Source: Sipunculus nudus (lineage: Eukaryota; Annelida; Sipuncula; Golfingiida; Sipunculidae). From it: a DNA stretch of 64,000 nt. Numbering within the stretch: the stretch's first letter is position 1; each line of letters opens with the position of its first letter. Both the position numbers and the translations under genes were made by a program. Shown here one piece after another: positions 5,104 through 57,616 of the stretch. The stretch is taken from NCBI GenBank assembly GCA_026874595.1, contig CM049311.1:17073676-17137675 (forward strand), written 5' to 3'. The notes under the pieces were generated by a model. It was not told the DNA's origin. It saw nothing but the letters and a program-made list of their open reading frames with translations, and ran no database searches.

Positions 5104-5155
5104 AACAAATATAGTTTCGGGACATGAAATGCGACTTTTTTTTGTGGAAATACCA

Positions 5156-8100: not shown

Positions 8101-9442
8101 AATTAGCAGCTGTTAAAGGTGTTTCTGGGTCGTATGGCTGCCCATTCCTGTGTGCACTCTTGTTATTACCCAGTAAATCCCATGCATGTTGTGTTACCGA
8201 GAAAGGTCAATTTATGTTGTATTATCCAGATTTTTTTTTTTTTAATTTTGAAACTTATTTAATAAGATTTCTTGACCATAAAATGTAAATTTTGACCAAA
8301 AATATTGTCATTATAGCTGTTACAGAAAAGTTTGGAGTATACTTGGCGGTCATTTTGAAAAAAAAAATGCATTTAAATTCACAAACTAAGGGAGATCTTA
8401 CCTGTGTCTGTGGATAAATTAATTCCTATATGGTCCTGAGGTACTTCCATGCCAAAAGGGACCTTCGTCTCATGACTTAAGTAAACAGCTTAACCGGGGG
8501 GGGGGGGGGGGGGGGCACATGATAGATTATCGAAAACTATTCAAGCTAATAAGCTGATAATATCCTAGGAATATCCTGGATCTAAGAGCCTTCAAGTTTG
8601 GTAAATACTTTCAACATGCGTTAACATATACATGTATAAATACGTATTGTAATTGTATATTTCTATTTAGACTCCCGACCAAGACTAGCTAGGTCTTGCT
8701 TTTAAAGTCATTAGACAGACACGGTTGAGATGATCTAGGATCACTGCCCCGGTTGTCTCTTTAGACTATTAATTTTGCTAAGCTGATGACGAGACGCCAC
8801 CGACAAGCCAGCTAGGCCTCCACTTACAGCGCCACACCCTCACAAAGTACCAAGACTGATATGATAGATCTAGTCTTTTGAGTCACTAAACAGACACGGT
8901 TGAGGTGGTCTGGGACTACCACGTACCCCGGCCTGTCGCTTTAGACTATATGAATTATGAGGAGCCGATAGACGTGATGCCACACAAGCCAAGCCTATAA
9001 GCCGCGAAAACCGCCACCGCATATCCGCACCGGGACCCGGGAAGACCGGGAGGAGTCAAAGAGGAGAGAGACACAGCGCCACACCCTCACAAAGTAATGT
9101 CATCGTTAGCAAAGTACCAAGACTGACGGGACTATAAGCCTATGCTTATTTAATGTAATATAATGTCAGGTCTCATGACATATTTCTACTCCCCCCCCCC
9201 CCCCCAGTTAGAAAACTTTATCAATCCATACCAGCCTGTCTCTTTGGAAAAAATATTGCACCCATATTAATTAACAATTAGTCAAGCCCAAAACAAAGGC
9301 CAGATGCTTTCAACAGTGTTCATGCGAGTATAACGCGAAGTAATCAGACAGACTACGACCTCTGGCGGACAAAACATACACTCCTCCGCTTGTTAGGCTA
9401 TGTACGGTAAAACATCTTGTTTACGGCCGCGGCGAAAATCGT
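5156..9442. repeat. 4.3-kb direct duplication, copy 2
   Basis: This is the second copy of 784-5103, in the same orientation, separated from it by about 52 unique bases (5104-5155). Corresponding points are offset by 4313-4372 bases, depending on indels, mostly homopolymer and microsatellite length changes. The frame equivalent to 2325-2546 carries an in-frame TGA in 'cctatttgatgg' near 6705. The G-run at 8497-8514 is longer than in copy 1. The high identity of sequence with no visible gene points to a recent duplication, or to collapsed or expanded assembly of a longer array. Confidence 0.9.
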
Positions 9443-36700: not shown

Positions 36701-39700
36701 GAAAAAAAATCATAAAGATTCGAAAAAATATAGGTGGCGCCACCAGTCTGCAGGAAGTCATTGAACATCTCATGATCAATATTCATGCAAAGAATCATTC
36801 TGATCAATGCAGTAGTTATTCACATACTTGAGCATTTGTATCAAATTTTGCACTATTCTGGGAGGTACTTCGGAGCCCCATAGCTCAAAGGATATGGGTA
36901 ACAGAGACCTAATTTCAGGTTTTCAAGGAGATTTTTCATGGACCTCTCTGGATATTTAGTTTGAAGATTCCAGGTCCAGCGGTTACGATTTGTTCCCTGT
37001 TAATGGATGGCCGGACAGACGGCCAGACAAACGGACGCCGGACAAAGGATGATTGCTATAGCTCAGATGACTTTCAGTCAGCTGAGCTAAAAATTGTCCC
37101 CCTGCACTGATTTAAAAAAAAAAGTGCCTGAAAACCATACCGCTTTTTTGGCCTTAGGCAGCAGCAAAAATCTGAAATTTTTCAGATATTTTTTTCATGG
37201 GAATGATGTAGCCTAGTAGTTAAGACGTGAGAATTTGAGCTGAAGATCCCTGGTTTGAACACCCCGGTGCCTCAATGGCATAATGGTGAACGGCTGTTTA
37301 GAACCTCAGAGATTTTCTCTAAAACCCATAAGGCGTATTGTTATAATATTTTTATCATATGGACCCTACTGTGTCTTTCCCTAATATAACACTAATGGGT
37401 TTATTTCCTCATGTGGTTTACTCCTGTTATTGTCCTTTGTGAAGTTTCATGGTTCATCCTTTATGAATTCATAATATTTCAGTTGGACTGAGGAGTTTAA
37501 GGACTGTTGTGTTCACCTTTTTGCCCTCACGTAGCATACCTTCATGTTATTATAATAAGAAATGTTATTTTTGTGAAGTAAATGCAACTCTTTTTTTTTT
37601 CCAATGCATTTGCTCCATCAGGTGGTATGCCAGTAAAGGTGTATCATAGTTAGCTGCATCAAGACCTATAAGGGCACACATACATACACACACAGGATAA
37701 AGAGAAAGCTGGTAGAACATGAAGAGAACAAGCTATATTTTTTTTAACCCTCTTGTTCATGGAAAATAAAAATATTCAACAAAGAATTCCCAGGTGAAGG
37801 TTTTATAAACCCACACAAATCCTGTTCATTATGCAATGTGTACTAGAAAATGTTTAAATCAGCCAAATCATTATCCCTGTACCTGTGATGTAGCGCCTGG
37901 GTCTGATGACTCGCTAGACTCGCTGCACTGGCGTTTCTTTGATACTTCTTGTCGAGCAGCCAGTGTCGGGTCGTCTTGCTTTGTGTGTGCAGGTTCTTGC
38001 TGATCAACTAAGTACTGTTGACTGCTTATTGGCTTGCCATTTCTCATATCTGAAATGTAATGCATTATGATTTATTATAAATATATGTACCATGTTTACT
38101 GGCAAGTTGTAGATATATGCTTATACATCAATCACATAGGAATTATAAGAACTCTTCTGAATATAAATTATCGGTACCCTAAGTTCAATAATATGTACAT
38201 AGAGAAGGCAGGTATATATCCAGCACCATTCCCGCCCTCTGACCTCAGAGTTCACAGTCAGTGCACTGGCTGTCCGAGTTCCATTACATCCTTCAGCAAG
38301 AACAAACTTTAAGGCTCCATGAGGATGCAAGTATTTTTGTCATTTTTGATAACAACTTATGGCCTACAAGTACGCTGTCATTTGATATAAACCAGACCGA
38401 TCATTAGCTTATTTAGTATACTTTCTAACTACACCTAACATGAGCAACAAAAATTCTGTTTTAACTCATTCTGGTTTAAACCCCTCTGCGTTTTTGTTGA
38501 ATTTTTGACTGCATGAATACAAGCATGGCTAGCATGGGTTACTGGATGCAGCAAACTTGTACATAATACGTGCAATGATTCATTACCTTAGAGACAGAGT
38601 TTCAGTTTAGGATGCAAGTTCACCTGTTCATTTGTGACGATTCATCATTTGTAACCAAATGTCACGATAACGGGCTGTTTACCACAATATGAATGCAACA
38701 TGATGAAAGACAACTGAGATGGACTCCTTGATATGGCTTATATCATGTAATATGAACCAGCCCAATATAAATGCCTACTGAGCCTTGTTGTAACAGCTGG
38801 TGTATATCTGGTTTTGAATTTTACATAGATTTTGTTAACCTTGGTCATAATCTGGTCAATCATCTTAACTGACAATCAGGCAGATCACATACACAAAATA
38901 TCAAAGACAATTATGTACAATTATGTGGGAGCTAGTTATTTTGGACACAACAAAGTAAAATGAGTACGTCAAGAATGCAGTATACACACACTGGAGGTCT
39001 TGTGACCTCAGATAATATTTATTTAAGCAGATTTTGCTAAGAATCAAATTCAGGTGAGGTAAAGGCCTGCCAAAGGTAAATAACCAATAAAAAAAGTAAG
39101 TGCTGTGGAAAAAAGAGTAGACTATTTTAGAATAAATGGTAAACTAGATGTGTCGGTGCGACACGAATGCCCCTGCCTGGGGCAAATTAGAAACATTTGT
39201 TAAATTTTGTAAAATTTTTTTAAGTTCAGGAGGTGTTGTATGGTCAAAAGTAGGTCAAGAAGGGCAAAATGCAAACTCGATCTGTAACGGGTCATTATCA
39301 AGGAACACACCAAAAATCAGGCCAGTATGCAGGCACTGTGAAAAAAAGTCCATACATGTGCATTTTTCTTTCATGACATTTTCTATGTTCAGGATCTGTC
39401 ATATGGTCAAAAATAGGTTAACTGGGACGAAACGCGAACTCCACCTGTAAGTGGTCATTATGCGCCCACAGACCAAACATTGGGCCAGTATCTGTAAGCA
39501 TTGCATTGCGAATCTAGAATATTAGCAAAAGCTGGTAATCAGTTATAAATTTAAATTGGAGAGGTATGTACCATGTTTTATAACAATCCATCAAATGCTT
39601 CCTGAGAAATATCCCCCTATGTTTTTTTTTCTATACTAAGCTCTGTGACCTTGAAAAGTAGGTCAAGACCACCCATCTTTGAACCTGACCAAGATTTTGT

Positions 39701-42700
39701 AAATATGATGCAAAAGCACTGAAGTAATGAAGTTCCTTAGTTGAATACCTTTGGAGATATCCTGCACAAAGGCCAAAACTAAAAAATCCGATAAAATTTC
39801 ATTAAAAAATCAGAAATTGCAGGTGACGCCACCAAAATTGTGCAGAACATACAGACCACCAGTCCCAATGATCATAGTAAGTTTTGTGAAAATCCACACA
39901 ATGGTTCCTGAGATATAAGCTTCTGAGTGTTTTTCTATAATCAGTTCTAAAATGTAGAAAAATGGGTCAAGGTCACCCATCTTCGAACTTGACTGAGATT
40001 TTATCGATATACATCTTCACTGATGAAATAAAATTCCAACGGTGAATCCTTTTAGAGATATCCCGCTCACAAGGTAAAAGTTAACAGACGCGGAACGGAC
40101 GGACGGTCAGACACCCGACAGACAGATGGACGGATAGATGGACAGCTTGGGTGATGACAATAGCCCATCAGCCTATGAGCTGAGGGCTAAAACGGCTGTA
40201 CAAGTACATTTGTCAGAAAATTTATATTTTTCATGAAATTTTCTCTGTTGAGGAGCCGTAAAACAATCAAAAGTAGGTCAACCTGGACGAAACGCAAACT
40301 CCATCTGTAACTGGTCATTATCTGCATAAACACTAAAAATCAGGCCAATATCTGCAGGCATTGCCAAAAAAAGTCTGTACATGTGTTTTTGTCATGAAAA
40401 TTTCTATTTTTCATGAAATTTTCTAAGTTAAGGAGCCATAAATGGTCAAAAGTAGGTCAACCGGGAGGAAACGCAAACTCCATCTGTAACTGGTCAATAT
40501 CTGCATACACACTAAAAATCAGGCCAATATCTGCAGGCATTGCGAAAAAAAGTCTGTACATGTGTATTTGTCATGAAAATTTCTATTTTTATGAAATTTT
40601 CTAAGTTTAGGAGCAGTAAAACAGTCAAAAGTAGGTCAACCGGGAGGAAACGCGAACTCAATCTGTAACTGGTCAATATCTGCATACACACCAAAAATCA
40701 GGCCAATATCTGCAGGCATTGCGAAAAAAAAGTCTGTACATGTGTATTTGTCATGAAAATTTCTATTTTTCATGAAATTTTCTAAGTTTTGGAGCCCTAA
40801 AACGGTCAAAAGTAGGTCAACCAGGACGAAAGGCGAACTCGATCTGTAACTGGTCATTATCTGCCCACACACCAAAAATCAGGCCAATATCTGCAGGCAT
40901 TGTGAAAAAATGTCCGTACAACTGTTTGATTTCGGAATGACGGACATGGGTAAAACTTTATGCCCCGGCCACTTTGTGGCGGGGGCATAAAAAGAGAAAA
41001 ATTAGTGGCAAAATTCCCAATTTTATGTCACAAACTGAATAAAAAGATGTGCTTCACACACTTAGGATGTGTACATATATTGATCAAGTCAGAAACATAC
41101 ATTGCACATTCCCTTGCATGAAGATAAGGGCATTTTCTACACATTGTGACACATGCTAGACATTTGTAACTGTCACACACAAAAATTGCAGTGTCCCATT
41201 CTAGTTCTCACTGGACTGGTAAAACAGGAGAAAAAAAATGATCATTGTGACAAAAAAGTCTGGTGACCTCTGACCTATAAAAATATGCATGGATTTTTAC
41301 AGAGATTAAAACTCAAGTGAGATACTTTATTGGTTTATATTCATTGAAATTTATCATATTCCTCATGATGAGTTATTCTGGGGACACCACAAAATCATCA
41401 GGTGATCTCTGACCTGTTAAATATAAGACCATTTCACAAAGAAACAAGGTCTGGTGAGATATTTTGTAAGTTTACACTTGTAATGAGTTTCATGAAAACC
41501 AATCAAATGTTAATGTGTCAAGAGTTTTGCTGTACATACCATAACGTCTACAATACAGACATATATTATCATTGAGCTTGTCTGAATATGCTTCAAAGAT
41601 GTGGTTAAAGTACTTTTAAATTGCATTAAGAATGAGGTGTCACTAATTGTCTCATTACCTGAATTTCTGTGTTGTCCAAGTTTGTTTGCCAGGTCAAACA
41701 TCCAGTCACACACTTTTCCACTGAAACACAGGACCACATAAAATTAAAAGTGATTCATGCAGATGCAAATATATTTTTTTTACAAAAAAGATAAGTATTA
41801 CAAACAATAGTATATGTTTTGACTAGCTTGTTGTAAAAGAACACTGAAGCAGAAAATAAATATATACATTCATAAAATCGTATAAAAAAGATAACTGTCT
41901 AGAGAATTGTTTTCAGCAAGGGATTGGTTTACCGTAGTTCCCAGATTGCCGACATATAGGTACTCATTACAGTTTTTTTAGAATAACGACCAATAAAGAA
42001 TCCAGATTTCATTATTTGAAATACTGGTAGATGGTGCGTTGAGTGATTTCAATCTTTAACTAAGCATTCACTTTCTTCAGCAATCTCTTATGGTTAACCA
42101 ATTCAAAAGAAGTCTCCACTATCTTCCGAGCCATTTTAAGAACCCTGTAAAGTAACTTCTGTTCCTCGACATTGAAGCTACCTCCCCACACAGTGACAGA
42201 GAGTGTCAAGACAATCTCTAAAACTGCTCTATCAAATTTCAGCAGCATTAGTAAGCCTTGACCAATCCCTTTTAAGTCTGATTAAATAGTACAGCCATTG
42301 CTGGGCCTTCTTCATACAATAATTTACATTTACGTCCAGCTTAAAGTTAGATGATATATGGATACCTAAAAATCTAAAACAGTCAACAATTTCTACTGCA
42401 GAACCATTAATTTCTATGGGCAAGATCACTAAACTTTTACACTAAAAAAGGCTCTACGATCGTTTTTCCCAACATTCAACTCTAAGTTGTTTTCAGAGCA
42501 CCACAGTGGTCACTGTTTCAGTTCAATAAAGCTCAGATTAAGGATGCATTTAATGTATCAATTAAAAGATGCTGCATCATTTTTTCTGATCCTCAGAAAT
42601 AGGTAAAAGATGTCCAGTGAATAAACTGTGATTTATACAAGAAATAATGGTTAAGAATATCTTAATATCTTATGTAAATCAGACAGCATATTTATTATGG

Positions 42701-45700
42701 CCATCAGGCTTGGGTCAAGTACAGGGGGTCAGTACTTGAGTACAAGTACTTCAGAATTCGTCAAGTACAAGTACAAATACAAGTACACAATTTTTCAATG
42801 TACTTGAGTACAAGTACAAGTACAGGGGTCTGTACTTGAGTACAAGTACAAGTACTTTTAATTAAACAAGTGACCCATGGGTCATGACGCTCAGCTGCCA
42901 AGCATGACCTGCGACATCATGGGCTGCGATTCACAACTTCTAGTAAAATTGTTGCAGAACCTATATGCCAATTTTGTTTAAACTTTCTACGTTGCCATAA
43001 ATTCTTATCATATATGTCTGGTGAAAACATAGTGAATGATGGTCTGAGGCAAAATGTATGGTTGTTGAGCTATCAGGAACTAATCCCACAGCTTGCCTGA
43101 TACCTGTCAGTCTCAAAAGGGATACCACACAGGCCACATATAAGATCAAAATATAGCAAAAGATCAAGGAAATCCATGCAAGAATTATTGTGAAATGGGT
43201 GCTTCCATATTAATTTTTATTCAATACAAGCCAACTGTACTGAGCTTTCATAAATGATGGTCATATTTATTAAGAAATCTTTGACCCAATGCAAGTTTAC
43301 ATTAATATACATCCCACTGCATTCACTTTAATAGTTCTTGAGATAATATGTTCTTAAGGCATTTAAAGATGGCTTCCTGGTGGCCATATTGGATTTCTGA
43401 CAGGTTGGAAATTGAACAACAAACATCCTCTAAAATGGACCAAACATCATAAAAAATCACAGAAAATGCCCTGGCAAAAGGATTTCTAAAATGGCTACCT
43501 GGCAGACATAATGGTTTTCTGACAAGTCTGACATTTGATATCACACATCCTCCAATAAGACACTAAACTTGTAGCAATTGCTCCAAGGAATGTAACAGTT
43601 ATGAATGTCCAACACAATTCAAAAGGCATGATCAGGTTGGAGAGCTCTCATATCAGATTTATGCAAATGTAAAAAGTGCAAATCCAATTTGTTTTAATTA
43701 TCAGCTTGCTATTCAATGGGGTCAGCAGGGTAGGTAAACTGCAAAACCTAAAAGAAAAGAAATGCAGAAAGCATCACTAAGAGTCTTGTAATCAAATAAA
43801 GCAATCCTAAATCCAGGTACAGACCCACATATTATCAGAACAAACACTTGCTGGTATATCTGATGATTTGTATAATAATATTCAGATATCTAGAAAACTA
43901 AGTTTATTGCTATGATTCCATGATATAAACTGCAAAATGTTCCCACCATTTTATATATCAGTAGCTAAACCTTAAATTTAACTCTCATAGTCTTAATGCC
44001 TGGCCAAAGCATTCCGGCAACAGTGTTTTTGTTATGCACTAATGATATATCCTTATCACTCCATGAGCTGATACAAAAGGGAGTCACATATCACAAGTGT
44101 CACTGACAATTATGGGCACACAGTGAGATGTACCAGTTGTGAGTGCCATGGTTATATATACAAGAAAACAAGAAAAATAGAGATGGTCTACAAAATAAGT
44201 TATTGTGAACATCCCTGACCTATGACCTTGGCCTTCTGCCCACATATCAACTGGATTCTTTCTAAATGATGGGTAACTACTAACCACTTACATCTGGCCG
44301 GGTGTAATTACTTGGCAACCAATAAGTGAATAACTTAGACCTGCAACCTTTAACCTCCTGACCAGCTGACCTCAAAATCAATTAGTTGTTTCTTCATACA
44401 AAAAGACCCATAAATATGAAGTTTGAATCACATTCAGTGATGCATAGATGTGGCATATGTGAAAGACTGAAAGTTTGGGTTAAACAGTTTCACTTGAAAT
44501 ATGTTCAAAAGCATTTAGAACAATATTGTGACCTTGACCTTTGACCTTTTGAACTCACCATCAATAGGCCTTTCCCCTATTGGTAGGTAAGCCATATATG
44601 ACAGATGGAAAGTATAGATTGAAAAGTTTGCCTGAAAATGACTCCACACAAGAAGAGGGTGCTGTGAACTTGACCTTTGACCTCAAAATCAACAGGTCTT
44701 TTCCCCTGTTGGCAGAGAAGTGATATCAGTGCTGAAAGGTTTGGAATGAAAGGTCTAGCTTGAAATGTGTCCACAACCTTTTCAAAGAAGTGGATCCTGT
44801 GACCCTGACCTTTGACCTCAACATCTATAGGATTCTTCTCCCATTTAGTAGGTGAGCTATATGTAAAAGATCAAAGAATTGGGATGAAAGGTTTGGCTTA
44901 AAATGCATCCACAGGCTTTTCAAAGAAGTTGGTTCTGTGACCTTGACCTTTGACCTTGTGACCTCAAAATAATTATGTTTGTTCCCCTGTTGGTAGGTGA
45001 GCTCTATGTGAAAGATGGAAGGGTTGGGATGAAAATTTTGGCTAAAAGAATTATTTCTGGGGGATGCAAACACACCCCATAACTTCGAGAATATAGGTCA
45101 CAGTGACCTAATTTCAGGTTTGCAAGGAGATCTTTTTAGAACCTCTAAGACTGCATAGGGTTCATGGCCCTAGCCCCTACAGTTACAATTTGTGCCCTGC
45201 TAACGGCCGGACGGCCGGCCGGACTGACGGACGGAAGGACGACGGACAAAGACTCATCGCTATAGCCCAGCATGACTGAAAGTCAGCTGAGCTAAAAACA
45301 AAAAAAAGCCATTTTTCTGAGTATTTATTGATAAAACAATTACCTATATTCTACACTCTGTTACACAGTCAGATATCAGTACTGGTACACAAAAAAGGTT
45401 GGTTGATACTTCAATTGCTGAAAGTTTTTTATTAGTTATTCTAGGTAATCCAGGGTGACAGTCTTGATGGCCTTTCAGTATTTATATACACAATTACACA
45501 GCCATATATCAGTACACAAGAAATGGTGCTTTGATGACTATTCTTAATGACTATTCTTAATCTGCCAATTCTGTCACTTATTATATAGTGGCTTTAGAGT
45601 CTCTGTAATAGTCTGTCAGGTGTGTAAAACTCACAGCTGATCAGCTCAACAGTCCACCTGAGGGTTGTGTATAGTTCAGCTGTGACAACTCAAATCCAGA

Positions 45701-48700
45701 TTTACTCATTACCAACCAGACCTGCTCAGTTACCATGGCTAATTAGCCTGGAGCATGAGCAGATGTAACCTGGGACAAACTTACTCAGCTCAGTGGGTAG
45801 TGTTTCTACAAGCAATTCATATAATCAGGTCTGAGGATCTGAGCAGTTTGGGACTGAGGTATAGTTTTAGTTCATCAGAACAACTCACAAAACAAGCTGA
45901 ATTATTCAGTCTGGTGTCAGTTCTGTCTGAGCCTATCAGTCAAACACAGTGCTAAGATTTCTGTCTGACCTGAGGTCTCCTAATGCTGTTTTTATGGTAA
46001 GTAGGTTAGTGGTTCTGTATTCAAAATAATTTAAAAAAATACATGTACTTGACTAGTACTTGAAATGTACTTGACTTTTCAAGTACATTTTTAGCAAGTA
46101 CAAGTACAGTACAAGTACTGTACAAGTACTGTACTTGGTAAAAAGTACCAAGTACAAGTACAGGCCAAGTACTGAAAATTTTGTACTTGAGTACAAGTAC
46201 CAAGTACAAGTACATGTACTTGACCTAAGCCTGATGTCCATATACACCTTATTCAAAATAACCATTTTGTGTCTATGGAAGATCTGGAATGGGAAGATAT
46301 ATACCTCAAGAATATGTTCACGCTCATTTCAAAAGTTTCAGTAAATTTTGTCATGAGGCAACATTGTATGAGGTGCGTCTGAAAAGTAATGCGACAGGAG
46401 TCACAAGGATTTATTTCAACACCAAACAAGAAACAACATGGGCAGGTGCATTGTCCTGGTGAAGCAGCCACAATTGCTCCTGCCAAAACTTGTCTCTTCA
46501 AGCACACTGAGCAAAGCAAATGCCACAGGACCTCTTTGTAGACTTGCTTTGGCAAGAACTCACTGAAGATGATGCCTCTAGCATTGAAGAGTGTGATCAA
46601 CTATACTTTGAATTCAAATTTTGATGACAATGCACCAGCTCACAATGCCCTCAGCATCCAACAGTATCCGGCTAAGAAGAACATCACCATACTGGAACAA
46701 CCTCCCTACTCACTTTATCTTGCTCCATGTGACTTTTTCCTTTTCCAATAGCTCAAAGGAATCCTCAAGGGGACCTATTTTGAAGGTGTGGTAGCCCCCA
46801 AGAGGAATGTAACAACCGAGCGGAGAGGAATTCCAAAAGAATCCTTATCACAGTGCACAGAACCATAGCAGAGAAGGATGGAAAAGTGCAAAATTAGACG
46901 CGAGGGGGTTTACTTTGAATAGGAAACCATAGTTTCTTGTTTGGCACTGAAATAAAATTGTTTGTGACACCAGTCTCGTTTCTTTTCAGACACAACTTGT
47001 ACATATTAAAAATATAACAGGCAACTTAAAACACCAAGAAATATACATATGAACATCTTCAGTGGATAGCTGACCTTTGAATGAAAGAAAACCCTGGGAG
47101 ATAAGCTTCCATCATCTCAGTGAAGGTTTCTATGTCAAAGGCATCATCTCCTTCTTCCATGCCCAGCTCCTCCAGGACACCCACCATATAACTCAGCACA
47201 ATCTCATCAATCGCACTAAAAAGATAGTCATACATAAGAAATAACAAACTTACATGGTCATGTAACCTGCATATAAAAGTACATACATTTCACTACACAT
47301 AGGGTGATCAAGAGATAAGAACTACTGGCCCATGGGCCATGACCCTCAGCTGGATTGAAGGAATGTTAAACAAAAAGCAAAATGATTGCCAGAGTGCCAA
47401 AAATCATGAATTATGAGAAGAGTCCTTAGAAATGTCTGGTTTAGGAGAAAACTCTCTAAGACTGATTGACATGCCGAATTTTAAAACCAATACCTTGAAC
47501 CACTCCTAAAAAATGAGCAATTTTTACCAAAAAAACATGTATGGATAGACACACAAGAAAACTATTGCAGATAGCACAACCAGTCTTGAGTAATATTTGG
47601 AAGAGTCAAAGATCTATGGGTATCCACCAATTCAGGCCAATACAGCAAATCACTAGTGAGAAAATAGCTTTTTTTACTCTACAAAAACAGGAAAGTAGGT
47701 GGCGCCACCTGTCTGGCTTATGAGAAAACTTTCCAAGATTGATGCACATGCCAAATTTCAGACCAATATCTTGAACCATTCCTGAGACATGAGCAATTTT
47801 CACCAAAAGCATATGTACGGATGGATGCCACAGGAAAATGATTGCAGGTGGCTCAACCAGTCTTGTTTATGAGATATAGGTCTTGAGGATCCATGAACAT
47901 GCACATATCAACCCAATACATTGAAGAACCACTAAGACAAACAGATGGCGAATGCATAGATGGACACTATGCAAAAAGTATTGTGGGTGGCACCACCAAT
48001 CGCATTTATGGGATAGAGAGATCCTAGGTCTATGGACAAGCAGACTTTCAGCACAATACATTCAGCCACTCCTGAGATATGGGCTGTTATCTCAAAGACA
48101 CCCAGATTTATACTGTACAAAAAGGATTGCTGGTGGTGTCACCTGTCTTTGTTAGGCACAACAATATAGGTGAAGGAACAACTATGCTGGGTTTTGGAAA
48201 GATCGGACCAAGGGTCTCAGAGGAGAGAAACTAAAGCAGAGTTTTTATATCGCATTTTATTTATTCTGGGGGGTACTTACGAGACCCATACCTTAGAGGA
48301 TATGGGTAACAGAGACTTTATTTCAGATTTCCTTTGAGTCTTTTCATGGCCCACCTTTGATGTCAAGTTAGAAGATTCCAGGTCCAGCAGTTACGATTTG
48401 TGCCCTGTTAACAGATGACAGCTTCTTTGCAGGTAACAAAAAGAGAGAATAAAATTAATAAAAATTGAAAAAATACAGGTGGCACCACCAGTTTGTAGGA
48501 ACTGATGGAACACTCCATGATCAAAATTCATACAAAGAATCATGGTGATCAATGCAGTAGTTATTCAGATACTTGAGTTTTTATATCAACTTTTTGATTA
48601 TTCTGGGGGGTACTTATGAGACCCATAGCTTGGAGAATATGGTAAACAGAGACCTTCTTCTGGTTTCCAAGGAAATTTTTCATGGACCTCCCTGGATGTC

Positions 48701-49508
48701 AAGTTAGAATATTCCAGGTCCAGCAGTTATGATTTGTGCCCTGTTAACGGATGGCCGGCCAGACGGACGACAGACAAAGGGTGATTGCTATAGCTCAGAT
48801 GACTTTCAGTCAGCTGAGCTAAAAATTGGATGTGTATGTTTTCTATGATTCTGTTGTTCTCCATTATTATTGAGAGGCTTTTAAGTTAATATAAGTATTC
48901 TTTCAGTGAAATGGTTTACTTGCTTTAAATTTTAGGTCACATTCCTTATATACAGTGGTCAGGTTACATTTTTCCATGATTCCTTCTACTCATTCACTGC
49001 TTGCAATAGCAGGCCTTGCTGAATATCCCCACTGGGGCACAGGAGAAGAGCCAAGAATGTTCTGACCAATAAGAGCAGATTATTACAGATTTCAGTTTCA
49101 AATATGAGGGGGGGGGATTAGTTAAGGGTTAGAGTTCCCTTGAAATCCCCTCAAAAGGCAATGTGTCCATATTTAGCAACCATGAAACCCTTAGTCTGAT
49201 GGTTTATGAACATTCTGCAAGCAACAGAAAGTTCAATATACATATGTAGTCAAATCTGATAGTTTTTTAGATGTCTGATTTTTTTGCATAACATTTTGTG
49301 ATGCTAGCTCATGCCATTCTGAGATAGGATGGGTTAAGGTAAGGAGGACAGACGATGCAACACCATTGCATAAGTTCAGAGGTTCGCTAAAAAGAACACT
49401 GTGTTACAGACTCAGCCCAATCCCTGCTCACCTGATTGATGCATCTGCATCATGGTCCTTCAAGAACTTAGAAAGGGAAGTTTTCACCAATTCCTCCTGT
49501 GTTGACAT
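32723..49508 (-). CDS. CUEDC2: CUE domain-containing protein 2 homologue
   Basis: This is an adaptor protein with a ubiquitin-binding CUE domain. In mammals CUEDC2 has been linked to steroid-receptor turnover, IKK dephosphorylation and Cdc20 control in mitosis; whether those roles hold here is unknown. Minus-strand exons in order: 49432-49508, 47075-47215, 41659-41720, 37883-38049, 35624-35797, 34854-34930, 33788-33848, 32723-32869; 906 nt, 301 aa (human 287), all GT-AG and all phases joining. Conserved blocks: IDEIVLSYMVGVLEELG (27-43), FTEMMEAYLPGF (about 55-66), CUE domain about 156-196 with M163-F164-P165 and GGDLDKAAQLVL, then TRYLDNKVVTTKGERF and the C-terminal RQYRFH (human RKYRFH). 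The variable middle (94-149) is Gln/Ser-rich. The introns carry MITEs, a LINE remnant, a mariner and repeat arrays, none of which interrupts coding sequence. Confidence 0.94.
32925..32992. repeat. (TA)n(CA)n microsatellite
   Basis: The TA run ends in CACACA. It starts about 55 bases upstream of the CUEDC2 exon 8 acceptor, close enough that length changes might affect splicing (inference). Confidence 0.95.
33682..33731. repeat. (TA)n microsatellite
   Basis: Perfect TA run about 55 bases past the CUEDC2 exon 7 donor, in intron 7. Confidence 0.95.
33788..33848 (-). CDS. CUEDC2: CUEDC2 coding exon 7
   Basis: Acceptor cattgtag|ATACTCAT; donor AAGAAG|gtaaga; residues 233-253, RYSYIDTDDDKKEHKPMLPKK, matching human [21 protein letters not shown]. 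At 61 nt it is the shortest exon. Confidence 0.9.
34142..34610. mobile_element. Long-TIR MITE in CUEDC2 intron 6
   Basis: 34175-34305 pairs, inverted, with about 34430-34590: left 'gtgtaactgctgcttgc...ttctctgggcag...cagaccactgatatt' matches inverted right 'GTGTAACCACTGCTTGC...GCTCTGGGCAG...CAGACCACTGATATT'. The arms are about 130-150 bp with a short non-palindromic centre. The exact ends and target duplication are not clear. The open frames here are by-products of the repeat. Confidence 0.75.
34854..34930 (-). CDS. CUEDC2: CUEDC2 coding exon 6
   Basis: Acceptor gaaattag|ACTAAGAA; donor GCAAG|gtcagt; residues 208-232, ending DDKKVKQEILAR, equivalent to human KDELKSFILQKY. The Lys-rich start could act as a basic patch. 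Confidence 0.9.
35624..35797 (-). CDS. CUEDC2: CUEDC2 coding exon 5 (CUE domain)
   Basis: Acceptor aatcgtag|GACTATGG; donor TACAAG|gtatta; 58 codons, residues 150-207. VKVLLEMFPASCGMEV and LAGGDLDKAAQLVLHRQ match human VDVLLEVFPTCSVEQ and ARGDLEEAVQMLVEG; MFP is the CUE ubiquitin-contact motif. Confidence 0.94.
35937..37092 (+). mobile_element. Hairpin-ended array element (TCAGCTGAGC family), copy F
   Basis: It starts with 'acctgtctttgttaggcaca' (also at about 48139) and has about three core units containing 'ggtacttacgagccccatag', 'caacagagacc'-like and 'gcagtagttattca' motifs (about 36066, 36400, 36849). Then follow a (GGAC)-rich stretch (about 37005-37045) and a 3' hairpin, GCTCAGATGACT-ttc-AGTCAGCTGAGC (37061-37087), then TAAAAA. 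The 5' palindrome seen in complete copies is absent, so this copy is 5'-truncated. It lies in CUEDC2 intron 4, minus-strand gene. Confidence 0.72.
37205..37340 (+). repeat. tRNA-derived SINE-like segment
   Basis: A-box-like TAGCCTAGTAG (about 37209-37219) and B-box-like GGTTTGAACACC (37252-37263) are spaced as in tRNAs, followed by a non-tRNA body ('cctcaatggcataatggtga'). It follows a repeat array and has no clean tRNA fold. It is probably a SINE. Confidence 0.5.
37883..38049 (-). CDS. CUEDC2: CUEDC2 coding exon 4
   Basis: Acceptor acatttcag|ATATGAGA; donor TCACAG|gtacag; residues 94-149. It is a low-conservation linker rich in Gln, Ser and Lys (includes KKRQCSESSESSD), placed by phase and position rather than by similarity. 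Confidence 0.85.
39143..40990 (+). mobile_element. Hairpin-ended array element (ATGCCCC family), copy A
   Basis: The start is ACTAGATG, then the small palindrome TGTCGgtgCGACA, then CGAATGCCCCTGCC. The core has about 180-bp tandem units ('caggccaatatctgcaggca' at about 40341, 40521, 40701 and 40881, with older units at 39250-39500). The 3' end is a hairpin, ATGCCCCGGCCAC...GTGGCGGGGGCAT (40960-40988), then AAAAA. The 3' hairpin arm GGCGGGGGCATAA complements the 5' motif. A different array with its own (GGAC)n and hairpin ending 'gagggctaaaac' (about 39500-40195) is inserted in the middle. The overlapping open frames repeat with the units and are not genes. Confidence 0.8.
41659..41720 (-). 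CDS. CUEDC2: CUEDC2 coding exon 3
   Basis: Acceptor tgtttcag|TGGAAAAG; donor ATTCAG|gtaatg; residues 74-93, GKVCDWMFDLANKLGQHRNS, aligning with human IGDMMQKLSGQLSDARN. Only 62 nt. Confidence 0.88.
42060..42520 (-). pseudogene. L2/CR1-like LINE reverse transcriptase remnant
   Basis: Minus-strand translation gives, with at least one frame break and stops, WCSENNLELNVGK, then INGSAVEIVDCFRFLGIHIS, KKAQQWLYYLIRLKRDWS and LTLSVTVWGGSF...KMARKIV. This is the C-terminal part of the reverse transcriptase of L2/CR1-type non-LTR elements ('FKYLGVHIS...KKAQQRLYFLRKLKR...SVWYG...RVVK.A'). The 5' part of the element and the catalytic YADD region are missing. It is a dead 5'-truncated copy in CUEDC2 intron 2. 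Confidence 0.85.
42705..46233. mobile_element. hAT-like element with CAAGTACAAGTAC arrays, 3.5 kb with nested repeats
   Basis: Ends CAGGCTTGGGTCAAGTAC and, inverted, CAGGCTTAGGTCAAGTAC match at 17 of 18 positions. Flanking octamers ATGGCCAT (42697-42704) and ATGTCCAT (46234-46241) match at seven of eight. Subterminal arrays of CAAGTACAAGTAC in both orientations lie at about 42710-42860 and 46030-46225. The interior holds the hairpin-ended array element at 42866-45298 and about 700 bp of other unassigned sequence. No transposase was seen. Confidence 0.8.
42866..45298 (+). mobile_element. Hairpin-ended array element (TCAGCTGAGC family), copy D
   Basis: It starts ACAAG, then the perfect palindrome TGACCCATGGGTCA (42871-42884), then TGACGCTCAGCTG. 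Core arrays: two units with 'atggcttcctggtggccata' (about 43370, 43490), then about 140-bp units with 'gaccttgacctttgacctc' (about 44530, 44671, 44803, 44940). A (GGAC)-rich stretch lies at about 45205-45245, followed by CATGACTGAAAGTCAGCTGAGC and TAAAA. The 3' CAGCTGAGC is the complement of the 5' GCTCAGCTG. It is nested inside the hAT element at 42705-46233. Confidence 0.75.
46369..46999. mobile_element. Head-to-head mariner remnants sharing outer TIRs
   Basis: TA dinucleotides (46367-46368, 47000-47001) flank ends TGAGGTGCGTCTGAAAAG and, inverted, CAAGTTGTGTCTGAAAAG. The plus strand right of about 46620 encodes a mariner transposase segment (DNAPAHNALSIQQY ... PPYSLYLAPCDFFLF, D34D spacing) with stops. 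The minus strand left of about 46600 encodes another segment of the same protein (ITLFNARGIIFSEFLPKQ, VYKEVLWHLL, then after a frame shift HQDNAPAHVVSCLVLK). Both halves end in the same 3' end sequence, so two broken copies face each other. Neither is functional. Confidence 0.85.
47075..47215 (-). CDS. CUEDC2: CUEDC2 coding exon 2
   Basis: Acceptor atctttttag|TGCGATTG; donor CAAAG|gtcagc; residues 27-72. This is the most conserved block, matching human LDEVIFSYVLGVLEDLG and AFTEMMEAYVPGF. Confidence 0.94.
47321..48825 (+). mobile_element. Hairpin-ended array element (TCAGCTGAGC family), copy E
   Basis: Start ACTAC, then palindrome TGGCCCATGGGCCA (47326-47339), then TGACCCTCAGCTG. The first core section has units with 'ttgaaccactcctgagacatgag'-like sequence (about 47490, 47770, 48060). 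From about 48139 the second section matches copy F ('ctttgttaggcacaacaa'), with units near 48260 and 48600. Then come (GGAC)-rich sequence (about 48745-48775), hairpin GCTCAGATGACT-ttc-AGTCAGCTGAGC (48793-48819) and TAAAAA. This is the most complete member in the window. It lies between CUEDC2 exons 1 and 2. Confidence 0.78.
49340..49396 (+). repeat. 3'-end fragment of a related array family
   Basis: 'ggacagacgatgcaacacc', 'cataagttcagaggttcgct' and AAAA parallel 61380-61437 ('ggacgacgccacaccgtcac', 'ataagctcacaggttcacta', AAA). It abuts CUEDC2 exon 1 in the intron. Confidence 0.5.
49432..49508 (-). CDS. CUEDC2: CUEDC2 coding exon 1
   Basis: ATG (49508-49506) starts MSTQEELVKTSLSKFL, ending with two bases of codon 26; donor ATCAG|gtgagc. 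On the minus strand a strong acceptor, tttcctgtttcttgcag, ends at 49517, leaving only 8 nt (CACAGACA) before the ATG. A non-coding first exon therefore probably lies at higher coordinates. Confidence 0.9.
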
Positions 49509-49516
49509 TGTCTGTG

Positions 49517-50249
49517 CTGCAAGAAACAGGAAAACTATTATGGTCCTTTCAATATGCTATTTCCCAAATATAAAAGTAGATTCAAATATCCCCACTTAAC
49601 TACTCATTCTCAACTCATCTTGCATGGCTATGATGATAGAGCATAGATGACATGTTAACACATGGTTGCTGGTTCAGGACATGGTGAAGAGCTTCACCAT
49701 TGCATGTTCAGGAGTCAAAATGTAAAAAAAACTGTTAAATTCCCTCAGGTTTTTTTTCTTCAAATTTTTCAACATGTGCATTTAACAATGCCAATGTTGT
49801 CCGTGTTCAGGTTACCCTCCAAATAAACATTTGGAACAGGGTGTAACCACTGATCCAGAATTTTATCAATAAATACAATTGTGTTACAAGTATAAAATTT
49901 AAATTTGAGGGGAAGCCAAGCTAGGTTGGACCAAGTTGAAGCCTAGCTAAGCTAAGCTGCCTAGAGTATGGGGTAACTATATAACACAGGTGAGGGCTCC
50001 ATCACCCACTACACTCTGTTAAACTGGGCTGGCCTGATGTAAACAATACTTTACATGGTGTCTAAAAACTTGAATAAAAGCTACTCTTTTAAATCAATTC
50101 CATTGAAATTTCAGATTTTAAAAGATTAAATCCTTATGTATACATGCTGAGAAAACTAGTGTGTACAGGGAAAAAAAGGTGCTTTGCCAAAGTTGGACAA
50201 AATTTAAGATATAAAAATAACTTTAAAAATTTGCACAATTCAGATCTTA
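49517..50249. other. Region upstream of CUEDC2 coding exon 1
   Basis: This should be 5' UTR intron sequence, judging by the acceptor at 49517. No first exon or promoter can be named from sequence alone; it could lie anywhere to the right. Confidence 0.4.
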
Positions 50250-50392
50250 CTGTAGACATCTTACTGTATGCCGTATTTTGGAATTGTAGGTCTGTAGGTT
50301 TCAAAATGTGCCCTGTTGACAGCTAGATGACAGTCAAAGGACCCTGACCATAGCTCAGACAACTTATAAGTCAGCTGAGCTAAAAATCCAAT
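50250..50392 (+). repeat. 3'-end fragment of the TCAGCTGAGC family
   Basis: 'tgtgccctgttgacag', then 'agctcagacaacttataagt' and CAGCTGAGCTAAAAA. The core and 5' palindrome are missing, leaving a truncated relic. Confidence 0.7.
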
Positions 50393-50589
50393 GTGTTGAG
50401 ACAACCAGTTGATCACAGTGGCACTAAGAAAACTGCCATTCTGCATTAAAAGCTCTATCACATTCCAAGGCAAATAATGTTAAAATAAAGGAATTAAACA
50501 GATTAAATGTGCTAAGGGGACACTGCCAGGTGCCATTGTAAAGGTGACCACAGCCAGGCAATCACCATGTGCCCTGGAGTTTTTATGTA

Positions 50590-52304
50590 CTGCATTTCCT
50601 TGATCAGACTCTGGGCCTTAAATAGTCGCCTGCCTTATTTAGTGCCGGGGCAAAACAATGTCGTAGAAAAATAAACGCCGGTCTTGTTCACAGGCCTGGT
50701 GTAGTTTCCAAGTTTGCTGCCTGATGTCTTTTCCCTTTACTATAATTGGTGCATTTATTGGTCAAATTGAGCATAGATTGTTGTAAGAATTTCAATTTGT
50801 GTTGTATTGATTATATGGTTGTTTCTTCTATAAATTATTTTTTAGCATACGTGAATGCCCTTTTCAAGAGGGACACCAAATATTCCTGATACGTCCATTA
50901 TGTTTAAAGCAGATCACTGATCCTAATAAATGCTATATAATTACGTCAGCAGTGAGAAAGCTAACACTATCACTGCTGTCAAGCTAGGTAAAACAGTACC
51001 CGGCTTGACACAACTGGTACAACTTGGTACGGTGAAAGTATACCTCTCAGATGGTTGAACAGTACTGTTCAAATATGTTTTGGCACATATTTCTTGTGTA
51101 GCATGAAGACACCAAATGATGGTGTCGAGCGGTACAATTTGTAGCTACTGTCAAGCAAAGATACGCTGCTTGCTTTCTTTTTTAAGTGCCTTTTTAAGTA
51201 CATCCCCACTGTAAGAAAATTATCTCCCAAAACACAGGTGGACATAGGTTCACAACACAAAGTAAAATTACTTAGGTAACCTTTTCAGGAATGAATGGAT
51301 GAGTTTATTTATAATAGCATCATGTACAATAACACATGAACAAAAGCAATAAATGTCTTCTTTACCGTTAAAAAAAAAGAGTACATCACCACTGTTTCCA
51401 AAACCATGCACTGAGATAATCTTTAAAGTTAAAAATAGTATTTACTCTTGTCCACAACTATATATTCAGAAATATTTCTGGCAGTAAATGTCACATACCA
51501 GTATATACCAGGTCCGAAAGGTTTCACTATGCTGTGTCAAGCTGAATCAGTTAAAAGTCAGACGGAAAGTGTTATGAAAACGAATTACGCAGTGCAGTTA
51601 TACGTACCAGCCCCTGTTTTTTTATGGAACCGATATTACTAGTTGTATACAGTGCACAGTTAATGGAAGAGCCACCTGTGTTAAGTATAAACCAGGTGAG
51701 AAACCCTTGAATACACTGTGTCGATCTGATTCAGTTGAATTCTTGACAGGAGGAAAGTTTCATTAAAAATTAATGATGCTATACCATTATAAGTACCCCC
51801 CCCCCCTGTATAAGGATTGAACCAATGTTACCAGTTGTATGCTGAGAATAGTTAATGGAAGAGCCACTCCGTGTTCAGAGGGTAGGAAATGTTACCAACT
51901 GCACGCGGTATAAAATAAACATGAAACACCTGGGTACCTTGATATGAGAGGCCCGCGCGGACCAGTTCTTGTTGACAAAGTTCTGCCATCTCACACTGTG
52001 ATTCCCTGTTAATTCTTATTTATGGCACGTGATTGTGGAGACTGCGCATGTCCCATAACCCTATGACATCTAAGTAAATTTCAAAAACACAATCCATGTA
52101 CCGACAGTGTTTTCAATTGTGTTCCTCAGTGGTGACTGGCAGGTTTATTGTTTCAGCGTGTTCATTTTTTAGTATGTCAGATGAGCCTGATAACATATTT
52201 TTTATAAATGCTGGCCTTAAATAGGAGCCTGCCTCATTTAGATGCCAGGTCAAAGCTACATTTGAAAAAATAAACCCCGGGCATCTGTTCAAGGAAATAC
52301 TTCA
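50590..52304. mobile_element. TIR element with 'ATTTCCTTGA' ends, 1.7 kb
   Basis: Left CTGCATTTCCTTGATCAG and inverted right CTGAAGTATTTCCTTGAACAG are related, and both continue into similar subterminal sequence ('ccttaaatag.cgcctgcctta' on the left; 'ccttaaataggagcctgcct' read directly on the right). Target duplication was not determined. Inside lie two diverged tandem units of about 183 bp (about 51500-51683 and 51684-51870) sharing 'gttaatggaagagccac'. No transposase was recognised. Confidence 0.6.
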
Positions 52305-54835
52305 GTTGAATCACATGAGCTTCTGGCTGATCTTTCTAGACTAGAAGTAGAAGGCACTGATCAATTATTTCTGTCCAAATTTAAACAATTTCTTTCACGT
52401 TTTTTTCAGTATATTTTGACAAAACAAGTATAAAATGAAATTTCCAATCATGCAGATCAGAAAAAGATTCTGGATAGCAGAACATAAAAATATACAGGTT
52501 GGTCGGAAACTAGAGGCAGAAGTAATTTTTTACGATATCTTTCCAATGAAATGAGGGATAACTGAAATGAATTTTTCTTAGAATCATGAAAAAGGAAAAG
52601 TTGAATTTTGCTTTTAGCTTTATATATACCATTGGAAGTATTTTGTATAAGTTGGAAAGTGATAAGCACCACTGATTTCCCACAAAAGATCGGGAATTCT
52701 ATTCTACTAAACAGTTTTGTACAATCCTGGTCAGATATTAGGACAGGCATTTAGAATTCCATTCATCAAAAATAAATTCCTCAGGAAACCGGGAATTCAT
52801 ACAATTCCCAATGTTTCCGCAAATTCATACATTTCTGATGTTATCAATATTATTACAGGTTTCGCCACCAGATGGAGACAGATCCAAAACGCAGACATAC
52901 AAAAAAAGGGATAAGAATGCCATAACCACGTAAACATAGATGCCAATAGTGTTTTTTTTGTATTGACTAAAACAGCAGCCTGAATTGTAAATTCCCTCCC
53001 ATAACTGTTTGTGATGAAATGTGCGAAACTGAAAACAGTTTGGTAATAGTTACAAAAAGAAAAAAAACTATCATCGAAATTGTCAGTTTACTGTAACACC
53101 ACTATCATCATTTCCCAGAATGACACCCCCCCCCCCCCCCCCCACACACACCAAACACACTGACACAGTGTCAGTGACATTGTCCTTCACAAATTAGTAT
53201 AACAGCAACAATTTCATAAAACTGACAAGTGCATGCTGATATTTAGAGGGAGTGAAACTTATCATTTGAAAAAAAAGAGCATGCCATCATAATTGTTGAT
53301 ATATTTTAAAAGAAAATATTGCATTCCCGGATGAAATGTGCAAGTTTGTTTACAAACATTACGACAATGGCTTCGCTCGTCTGCGCTATGGCCAAGCTTT
53401 CTTAAATCCATCAAAATTCGTATGTACTTACCATCCCTTTTCCAAATCAACTTGAAGAACTTGATATCAGTCGTCAAGAACCTGGACGTGCCAATGAAAT
53501 GGATGCCGTTAATGTGCTAATTTATTCTTATGTAAGGAAATTTATGAAACACTAATATCGAATTTACCCGCTGGTCCGGGGATTACCGAAATAAACATGC
53601 GAAAGTTCCGGTGTACTCTAAAAATAATGGCTTCAATTACTTCCTACCGTGGAATAAATAAAGCCCAACACAATTTAGCCTAATTTTAATGAAGATATCG
53701 CCAGTTTTTTTTTATTTTCACTCGCTGGTCTTTACAAACATGTAATTATATAGTAAAAACTCTTTAAAAATTCTGGTGTTATCTTAAGAAAAAAAGAAAC
53801 ATTAATTTCGTATCATCTTACCTAAGTGGGCACATGAATGACAATGCAAACTATAGTAGGCCTATGGCTGTAGCCCAGTAGGCCTAAACCTCAGTAGCCG
53901 ATTTTGGACTTAACTTTAAATAAATTGCAACAAAAATCATTTGGATCCCATGCTTTCTTTAAGATCCCCAGACTGATATACTAAAAGTTCCAAGGAATCC
54001 AAGCATGGGAAAAAATATGGATAATTTCAATTGACCATAGCCTATAAGGCTATGCCACAAAATGTGTGTTTTTTTTTTAAATTTCATAGACAAGGGTTTT
54101 GCTTCATAACTATGGTATCTTGCGTATTGAAATCAAGAGGCCTGCTCAATAGAGAAGGCGAGTTGCGCCAACATAAATTTAACTTTGCTTAACAGACAAT
54201 ATCAATATAATTTGTCTATGGATACGATAACGCAAGTTATAATATCACATTTATTTTACAATTAGCTAGGCCTTTTCGCTTTTAACAAGGACAAAAGGGG
54301 CCTAAATTTAGTTCAATTAACACTCACAACTGCAATTTACACAATTTAGAAAAATTGTTCAAAACTTTATAATGATATTTTTTTCTTTCAAAAAAGAGTT
54401 CGACTTGGTATAATCAAATAAATTGTAATTATTTCTGTCATATCGTAATAATATACAATACTAAACGGAGAATACAATATCAACTGGGGTTTCAAAAGTC
54501 AAACCAGTTATTATTAGTTATTTAATTGATACATTTTTTTTTTGGTAACCCATGTGACTTTCGACTTTCAAATTACACGTGCCACGTATAGTATAGGAAC
54601 ACATGGGTTTTGTGAAAATGGTGGATATGACACGGCTCAAAATCAGCCTGAGTGCTGGATCACCGGAAATTTAGCCGAAAAGTTTAATACAGGGTGATAT
54701 ATTAATCTAGTAAAGTACTGGACGCTGACTTCCTCAACCCCCCCCCCCCCCCCCGAAAGTGCTCTGACAGGCCATATAGCTTAATTTAATTACTGACGGA
54801 TTACGTTTTCGCAGGCATTACGCAATTTAATCTTT
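52305..54835. other. Non-coding stretch, no feature assigned
   Basis: It holds poly-C runs at about 53127-53143 and 54740-54754 and short AT-rich frames only. The untranslated first exon of CUEDC2 could be here, but nothing marks it. Confidence 0.4.
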
Positions 54836-55367
54836 AGACGGGTCAAGGTTTGGAAAATATAGCTCAATCCCGAACAAATTGTTTTATGGTGATTTTCTGT
54901 ACAAAAGGATCCGCTTATCAATAAATCAAAAGTTTACCAAAATGGTACACTGGGGAATTATTTTCAAATGGCTTCCAAGATGGCCGCGAAGCCCCTCAGA
55001 TAAAAATAAATAATTTAGTTTTCATTAAAGAGTTTTAATTTTGGTACGTGTTACTAGATTATTAATTGGGCCCAAACATCCAATGGAACAAATAAAAACA
55101 CCATTACGTATTTATATTACTGGCAAATCAAAAATAAGGTCCAAAATGGCCGCCAAGTCCTTAAAAATGGCCATGAATCGTTCATTTTTCCTCATAGAAT
55201 TGTAATTATGGTATATTATATTTGGTTTTTGGGTCCTGAAATTCACTGTAACCAATAAAAACCTCATTACGTATTTATATTGCTGGCAAATTCAATATAT
55301 ATAACGTCCAAAATGGCCACAAAGTCCTTAAAAATGGCCATAAATCATTCATTTTTCATCATCATAG

Positions 55368-55548
55368 CAGCAGCTATGGACCATCTTCAGAAGACTATCA
55401 AGAGCTAAATCAATGCTTACCAGCAATAGAACTAACTGATAATCATCCAGTTTGTGACATATATGTTACCTTTTTCCCAAGACTGTTGCATAATATAATA
55501 AGACAGAAATATCTAGTGAAGGATGCAACTTTTCCTTTCGAGATTTAA
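55368..55548 (+). CDS. Possible coding fragment inside the foldback-like element
   Basis: After an acceptor-like 'tttttcatcatcatag' a frame of about 60 codons runs to TAA at 55546-55548; it includes SSEDYQELNQCLPAIEL, CDIYVTFFPRLLHN and LVKDATFPFEI. The composition looks protein-like but I recognise no family. It could be a captured exon, a fragment of an element protein or chance. Confidence 0.2.
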
Positions 55549-56309
55549 AGCTAAGGATGCGTACATGGCGAGGAAGAGTCATAGGGAATTCCCGGCCTCT
55601 AACAGCTACCAGTCCACAAATTCCAACCAATGCACAGTGGATGTAACACCCAACCTCTCTTGACAAGAGCCTGGTCTTCAAATTTCATCAGAATCCTACT
55701 ATGGGGATCTTAAAAAGCCAATCCTTTTAGAGAAAAGCGCATATTGCTGGCGGACCTAAAATGCCAGAGTCGGTACTAACTACTAAAGTTTGAGGAGCAT
55801 GCCTTGTCCACATGGCAAACGTATATTTTTTCTAGATAATGGCCTGTTTCAATCATCTAACTAGAGAACAACCTGAATATCACAAACACTTCAGTCAGAT
55901 AATCAGAAAAAAAATCAAAATAAATTGGAAGCATCTGAAATCCAAAACAGTGCCACGTTATCAACTAAGCCATCAGCCGATGCACAAGTCCCCAGGATCA
56001 CCAGGGCCGTGCCTGTAGCCGAATTTTTGATACACTACCGCCTAGTCGGATAGATCCTTACACTGCACACTACACCGACCACCAGGAAACAACCAGGTCC
56101 TAAAGAACATTCTATATTGATGAATTGAAACAAACATAGCTTCTTTTCCACTTTGCCACCAGCCTAGAAAACATACTGACCTCCCACGGAACTCTGTCAG
56201 GAGCTGGTAAACAAAACGGAAACCAGTTCAGAAGAAGGAGGAATCAACATTCGGTTCACCAAAGAATAAACCAGGAATATCTGGTTGAAGATGAAAAAAA
56301 AAAAAAAAA

Positions 56310-57616
56310 ACTAGACGACCATAGGTCGAACGCTTGCCGGAAATCGAAAGTGAAACACAGACGGACAGACAGAACATATTGTCGGTTTTCTATTAATGGA
56401 ATGACTCTCAGGGACATTGCTGAGAATATGTGGCCCGGAATTACATATGAGACAAAATAACAGGCAAGCAGATAAAGCTGACAACAAAAGACGAACAGAC
56501 AGACAAGATTGACACCAGATGACATAATCTAGTTATTGAGAAGATTCAAAGGAAGAAAGTGAGTTATAATTTATGTAATTTAGATTTATAGTTTTGGAGA
56601 TATGGCGAATTAATGATATACTTGGGAGGCTCGACTGTAGCGCCCTCTAGCGGACATATTTCGAAGACGACAAATGCGTTTCGTATTATTAGTGTATGAC
56701 ATGAGAGGTCCCAGTTTCCAAAGGATTCCGTCAAAGATGTGGCCTGTAGAATGCTATATGTAAAGCGTAAGAACCAGCAAGCAGGCGACTTTGAGGATAA
56801 CGGACAAACAGATGGACACACTGCCAAAGTGACAGAAGATTGAAACCAGATGCCTTAATCAGGTTATGGAGAAGACTCAAAGGAAGAAAAAAGCTATAGT
56901 TTATGTAACTGAGGTTTATAGTTTTGGAGATATTGCCAAAGCGTGATATGTTGGGGAGGTTCGCATCCAGCGCCCCCTAGCGGCCCTATTCAAAAAATAA
57001 AAAAACAATTTAGAGATCCTAGTGTAGGACTTATAATATGTCAGTTTCAAAAAGATTCCTGCAATAATGTGGCCTTTGGCGCAAGATGAATGAAATCTCG
57101 AAATATCTCTATTCACGAGATATTTTACAAGATACTGCAAGACTTGTAATAAAATCTTGTAGTACTAGTTGAATGCTACCTGATGCAAGAAACTAGATCA
57201 CTCTAGCTTTAAAACTGACAAAGTTAGAAAAATAAGACCCCTTATTTTCGAATATCATGACTTTTCCCCCAAAAATTTGTAACCATGGTTACGGCAAATT
57301 TTAGTCAGCTACACACCAGATGACAGGCCTTGGAATGACGATTAAAATGGGCTATTGTTGAAGTAGATACGACTAATAGTCACAAAGATATGAAGAAAAA
57401 CCCGTTTTGAGAAGTTTTGACGACCTTGACCTTGACCTTTGACCTATTTTAACCAAAAACAATAGGGCACCTAGAAATTATGTTTTTCATCATCCGTGTA
57501 AGTTTCAAGGTTACTGTGGCCAAATTGTGGCCAGGAGAGTGATGACAAACAGACAAACAGACATACGCAACTGACCAATAAGCTTGCCGAAATCTTTGAT
57601 TCCGGCAAGCAAAAAA
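56310..57616 (+). mobile_element. Hairpin-ended array element (GCTTGCCGG family), copy C
   Basis: Start ACTAGA, palindrome CGACCATAGGTCG (about 56315-56327), then AACGCTTGCCGG. Two core units of about 335 bp ('tttatagttttggagatatg', 'cagcgccccctagcgg'; about 56590-56660 and 56920-56990), preceded and followed by CAGA/GGAC-rich sequence. The 3' hairpin GCTTGCCG...CCGGCAAGC (57582-57610) is followed by AAAAAA; CCGGCAAGC complements the 5' motif exactly. It is nested in the foldback-like element. Confidence 0.78.

Follow-up and report, generated by a model that had tools for sequence, protein, structure and literature searches.

The repeat elements A, C, D and E, which lie in the window (the whole 64-kb stretch of Sipunculus nudus DNA analysed here), are very probably non-autonomous Helentrons of the HINE/DINE-1-like kind, most likely mobilised in trans. 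A preliminary description of this DNA had already pointed to Helentron-associated DINE/HINE elements, and this lead is backed by the ends of copies genome-wide, by a T-rich target, by the lack of duplication at two empty sites and by Helentron-type Rep genes in the genome. It had also claimed four sequence-unrelated families with an undescribed architecture; the observation is largely real, and its novelty claim is not. What had been claimed as an undescribed architecture can now be annotated as three HINE end types, which occur in very large numbers in the S. nudus genome.

Orientation and layout of the elements

The palindrome, the adjacent motif, the tandem core, the terminal hairpin with the complement of the motif and the A-run were all found in A, C, D and E where they had been placed. 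The minus strand is the element orientation for all four, and the preliminary description had read them backwards. When reverse-complemented, each shows a T-run, a 5' subTIR with a complementary IR, a GTCY-type microsatellite and central tandem repeats, and in the 3' half a 3' subTIR followed by a palindrome and the T-rich target. The former "3' hairpin" corresponds to the 5' subTIR and IR, the former "motif" to the 3' subTIR, and the GGAC tract to the GTCY-type tract. After the palindrome, the 3' termini of the window copies read CTAGT in A and C, CTTGT in D and GTAGT in E, each followed by T. Predicted folding, with DNA parameters requested, forms the 5' hairpins from the subTIR paired with the IR, at −13.9 (A), −12.5 (C), −10.2 (D) and −10.6 kcal/mol (E). 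Within the window the GTCY-type tract is clear in D and E, variant in C and a remnant in A; the tandem repeats have periods of 179 in A and 138 in D, and were found by self-comparison in C and E.

The architecture appeared novel because the elements had been read in reverse orientation, and this candidate was dropped when reversing them gave the published HINE/DINE-1 layout. Both features that had been held to be undescribed are printed for Drosophila DINE-1 (PMC2374699) and for Cg_HINE (PMC7492417), in the available text of these papers, and are therefore already published: the palindrome is placed next to the 3' subTIR, and the GTCY microsatellite stands by the 5' subTIR and IR.

Element A (39143..40990, minus strand; 5' end at 40990, 3' end at 39143) is interrupted by a nested element, B. 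Its 5' subTIR and IR, the earlier 3' hairpin, lie at 40958..40990, its central tandem repeats at 40189..40920 (period 179, 4.1 copies) with about 1.7 further units at 39205-39503, past B, its 3' subTIR, the earlier motif, at 39167..39177 (10/11 identical to the 5' subTIR), and its 3' palindrome at 39150..39164. Element B (about 39511..40192, minus strand) is a HINE-like insertion in the tandem array of A. It has a clear 5' hairpin and GTCY tract; a 3' subTIR and palindrome were not recognisable when its sequence (39511-40192) was inspected. It is positioned in the A-run of an A monomer (a T-run in element orientation), and the array continues on the far side. The claim that a (GGAC)n tract stands beside the hairpin held for D and E, and failed for A and C. 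The tract near 40096-40150 is separated from the A hairpin by about 800 bp and falls within the nested element ending at about 40192, and its assignment to A itself was dropped, the tract being part of B; the microsatellite of C consists of GACA/GACAAA units on the plus strand, a GTCTG/GTTTG variant in element orientation. Across the genome, the 200 bp next to the 5' end hold 2-5 GTCY units in A copies (16 copies with a recognised 5' end) and 3-10 in E copies (9 such copies).

Element D (42866..45298, minus strand) begins with a T-run at 45294-45298, followed by its 5' subTIR and IR hairpin (45264..45293), a GTCY/GTCC-type microsatellite (45203..45249; GGAC on the plus strand), tandem repeats of period 138 (44650..44956), the 3' subTIR (42889..42897) and the 3' palindrome (42871..42884), all on the minus strand. 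Element E (47321..48825, minus strand) likewise has a T-run at 48821-48825 and a 5' subTIR and IR hairpin at 48792..48820; its core (47433..48753) holds two sets of related units by self-comparison (47433/47710 and 48239/48575), and its 3' subTIR and palindrome lie at 47345..47352 and 47326..47339. A further D/E-type 5' end was found on the minus strand at 37060..37093, and others lie near 25713 and 50386, also on the minus strand. At 62280-62320, a plus-strand D/E-type 5' region starts mid-hairpin right after core-like sequence, as if it were a truncated internal copy. D itself is located within a non-coding-looking element (42705-46233) whose inverted ends read CAGGCTTRGGTCAAGTACA and which is flanked by the 8-mers ATGGCCAT and ATGTCCAT, alike at 7 of 8 positions; the ends and the 8-mers suggest that this enclosing element may be a hAT-like transposon. 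Element C (56310..57616, minus strand) has its 5' subTIR and IR hairpin at 57582..57610, its 3' subTIR at 56332..56342 and its 3' palindrome at 56316..56328.

The end types number three, not four, and the notion of four unrelated families was dropped, because D and E have the subTIR and hairpin in common. Over 11 bases, subTIR identity is 6-8 between unrelated end types and 9-10 between D and E, and the best match between an element's own 5' and 3' subTIRs is 10 in A, 11 in C, 10 in D and 9 in E. The reported pairing of motif and hairpin within each element stands insofar as the own subTIRs match at 9-11 of 11 bases; for D and E some of this complementarity is trivial, because CTCAGCTG contains the self-complementary CAGCTG. 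That pairing is kept while the sequence changes had been claimed more generally, and what was found is one two-sided change between the palindromes of D and E (TGACCCATGGGTCA vs TGGCCCATGGGCCA), weak evidence alone because only one compensatory case, from a comparison of two subfamilies, is involved; such a stem change has already been stated for DINE-1 (PMC2374699).

Copies, ends and target sites

Could the shared plan be nothing but chance and low-complexity sequence with no common mechanism? A feature considered on its own often falls within chance expectation; the combination is rarer. Among 2,000 random pairs of the same spacing drawn from the 64-kb window, an inverted match as long as that observed was found at frequencies of 0.14 (A), 0.004 (C), 0.011 (D) and 0.044 (E), a palindrome as long at 0.14, 0.37, 0.053 and 0.052, and a terminal hairpin with an ungapped, perfect stem of the observed length at 0.49, 0.025, 0.51 and 0.48, respectively. 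A strict grammar with the microsatellite recovered D and E and gave 1 match in 60 one-strand shuffles. A looser grammar without it recovered A, C and E, missed D, whose stem has a bulge, and also gave two matches in simple-repeat-like sequence; in both-strand shuffles it gave none in 82 of 100 and one in 18 of 100, which leaves some room for coincidence. The ends of the elements are settled by copies elsewhere in the genome: exact ends are kept in unrelated flanks, and a 33-base pattern for the D end (31 bases fixed) has 5,889 matches genome-wide (2,961 + 2,928) and 0 in the reversed control. This refutes the chance explanation for the ends, and as a whole it deserves almost no credence.

The genome that was searched spans 153 contigs and 1.43 Gb; in it, the first-look candidates for the 3' regions numbered 3,105 for A, 2,748 for E, 1,581 for D and 1,900 for C. 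The best 40 per element were scored and all copies were fetched from these, so that the fetched copies favour intact ends. For A and D the sample is the 20 best each, the window copy excluded. For E it is 20 of the 39 others; four matches were passed over (C2:48859754, C15:39455747, C5:29245647 and C11:11032461). In three of these four the match begins only at base 6 or 10 of the end, and in the list of the best 40, 34 of the 40 main rows begin at base 1. For C it is 15 of the 39 others, with most of a cluster on contig C1 passed over.

Aligned at their ends, the copies show the termini as proposed. The termini are kept or nearly so and the sequence beyond them differs; T follows the 3' terminus directly in 71/75 fetched copies (A 20/20, E 19/20, D 18/20, C 14/15) and is lacking there in 4/75. 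The D end type is represented by thousands of exact ends. It also has full-length copies that resemble the window copy at about 95%: 12 of the 20 fetched D copies align across all 2,433 bases at 94.1-95.8% in different flanks. Exact motifs recognised the 5' end in only 9/20 fetched stretches of E and in 16/20 of A; among the recognised 5' ends, the T-run before the subTIR is mostly 5 long (D 12/18, A 10/16, E 7/9). The palindrome keeps all 7 of 7 pairs in 13/20 E copies, its 6-bp stem in 18/20 A copies, and is kept in 20/20 of D and 15/15 of C. In a viral contig collection, neither the 5' nor the 3' end pattern of the D/E type had a match, and the A hairpin pattern matched 3 contigs, of which the one inspected (L001), with one GTCY unit in 200 bases, looks like chance; an Rfam search at the gathering score gave 0 matches.

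Two A copies of the 20 (L043 and L045) have a sequence resembling the D/E-type 5' end right after their 3' end, exact in L043 and degenerate in L045, and look like insertions of A into another HINE at its T-run. In 7 of the 15 fetched C copies (L092-L098, judged by eye), the 3' end abuts sequence like C's own 5' region, with the microsatellite and CTCTCC/CTCTACAGG in 6 and a C-type 5' hairpin in L094. In addition, C matches form a cluster at 65.28-65.44 Mb of contig C1, and the two observations together look like head-to-tail arrays.

Two paralogous empty sites show the target. For a D copy (L057), the flanks, once joined, can be aligned across the junction with a related repeat in L059 at 177/204 identities, and only 4 bases of L059, at the junction, are missing from the joined flanks. 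In element orientation these are four Ts, and the filled site shows them within the T-run of the element; the target as read from this alignment is therefore a short T-run, with no duplication seen. At the second site, L066 and L010 are similar at 79%, again with 4 T-rich bases at the junction. Insertion into TT or T-rich sequence without target-site duplication is seen in the T after the 3' end in 71/75 copies, in the two empty sites and in nested B, with moderate strength for the target preference because the joined-flank sites number two.

The same sites bear on a rival explanation, by which the four elements would be the MITEs of some cut-and-paste transposon with short inverted repeats, a class to which the pearl-type elements of bivalves used to be assigned. 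Such a transposon would fit their short inverted end repeats, lack of coding capacity and high copy number, and pearl and DTC84 were indeed classed as MITEs (PMC5139131); however, their two ends are built differently, the repeats at the 3' end stand in a subterminal position, and a target-site duplication of fixed length, by which a cut-and-paste MITE is tested, was found at neither of the two empty sites, which makes MITEs a very improbable explanation.

Coding capacity, Rep genes and proposed mobilisation

None of the four elements contains a long open frame. The window holds 19 ORFs of at least 90 aa, the largest of 207 aa, and those touching A, C or E are of 100 aa (in A) and 104 aa. The 104-aa ORF (57511-57825) has no match in Pfam, and a Pfam search with 9 of the 19 ORFs gave one sub-threshold match and neither a Rep nor a helicase. 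Elsewhere in the window, 46370-46990 is a degenerate relic whose translation reads DDNAPAHNALSIQQYPAKKNITILEQPPYSLYLAPCDFFLF and which is presumably mariner-like. A direct duplication of about 4.3 kb spans 784-9442 (784-1224 vs 5156-5591, 95.5%; 1309-5103 vs 5623-9442, 97.1%), and an exon-like stretch at 17230-17571 matches HIV Tat-specific factor 1 (HTATSF1; E 1e-10), with neighbouring open frames that may be further exons.

In the genome, Helitron_like_N (PF14214) has 143 matches out of 150 scored candidates. The Rep motif at 12 fetched loci is RGSPH in 10, RGLPH in 1 and neither in 1, and the form with S has been assigned to Helentrons and that with L to Helitrons (PMC4067079); RGSPH was read in Rep genes of the same genome without a link to the ends of A, C, D and E. 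Some Rep genes of Helentron type are intact, with open frames of >2,200 aa (L075, L076, L084 and L086), and in one of them the upstream coding stretch contains numerous repeats, each about 50-60 bp long. An autonomous partner with the ends of A, C, D or E was not found in the stretches fetched around part of the 143 matches: the flanks of two intact Rep genes gave two short chance-like matches to the element ends, the element ends had no match at E 0.01 in 16 Rep-region loci, and among the matches listed by a lax inverted-repeat scan there was nothing but noise.

The single RGLPH locus and the termini raise the question whether the four could instead be canonical Helitrons of the non-autonomous kind (TC at the 5' end, CTRR at the 3' end, insertion between A and T), since the 3' terminus is CTAG, with T behind it, in A, in C and in most E copies, in keeping with the CTRR|T rule. 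The 5' end, however, is a T-run with a subTIR and not TC, D ends in CTTG, the subTIR and IR are features of HINE/DINE-1, and the base before the T-run varies; canonical Helitrons are thus hardly a likely source.

For A, C, D and E as non-autonomous Helentrons, the putative mobilisers are Helentron Rep/helicase proteins encoded elsewhere in the same genome. In the course of events suggested by the literature, the Rep would nick the T-rich 5' end, where the T-run is followed by a subTIR and complementary IR able to fold into a hairpin, and the helicase would peel a single strand off; at the 3' end, the palindrome between the subTIR and CTAGT/CTTGT would serve as terminator, and the freed strand would then join into a T-rich target. 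We consider it unlikely that one Helentron Rep reads structure (5' hairpin, 3' palindrome and CTWGT^T) and not subTIR sequence, moving three unrelated end types, and that C-type elements in addition target a GTTTG/GTCTG microsatellite of their own kind, building head-to-tail arrays.

Comparison with known systems

The bivalve elements pearl and DTC84 are alike in being modular and in containing tandem repeats internally, together with a segment that is microsatellite-like or palindromic; they differ in having been classed as MITEs when described, and are set beside A, C, D and E by description (PMC5139131). HINE-Mo of the mite Metaseiulus occidentalis has subTIRs, a 3' palindrome, a T-rich target, no target modification and variable terminal Ts, and its host genome shares with the present one the Rep motif with S, but HINE-Mo is without an IR and has a known autonomous Helentron partner (PMC4067079). 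In Cg_HINE of the oyster Crassostrea gigas, the left flank comprises a 5' subTIR, a complementary IR and a microsatellite (GTCY, GTCC or GTCK in several), the right flank a 3' subTIR and palindrome, and tandem repeats lie between the flanks (PMC7492417). As with A, C, D and E, the target is T-rich or TT, and the available text of that paper gives no TSD and no linked autonomous partner, so that the question of which autonomous Helentron moves the elements is likewise left open for the oyster Cg_HINEs; the host genome is another one, and the likeness is one of layout (PMC7492417). DINE-1 of Drosophila has subTIRs, a partial IR by the 5' subTIR, a GTCY microsatellite, central repeats, a stem-loop past the 3' subTIR and a TT preference. 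It has conserved core blocks, and its likeness to A, C, D and E is again by layout (PMC2374699). In DINE-1, the sequence of the stem that lies past the 3' subTIR varies from species to species, which suggests compensatory change, and several end types are possible per genome, as in D. willistoni, where DINE-1 has three subTIR types (PMC2374699).
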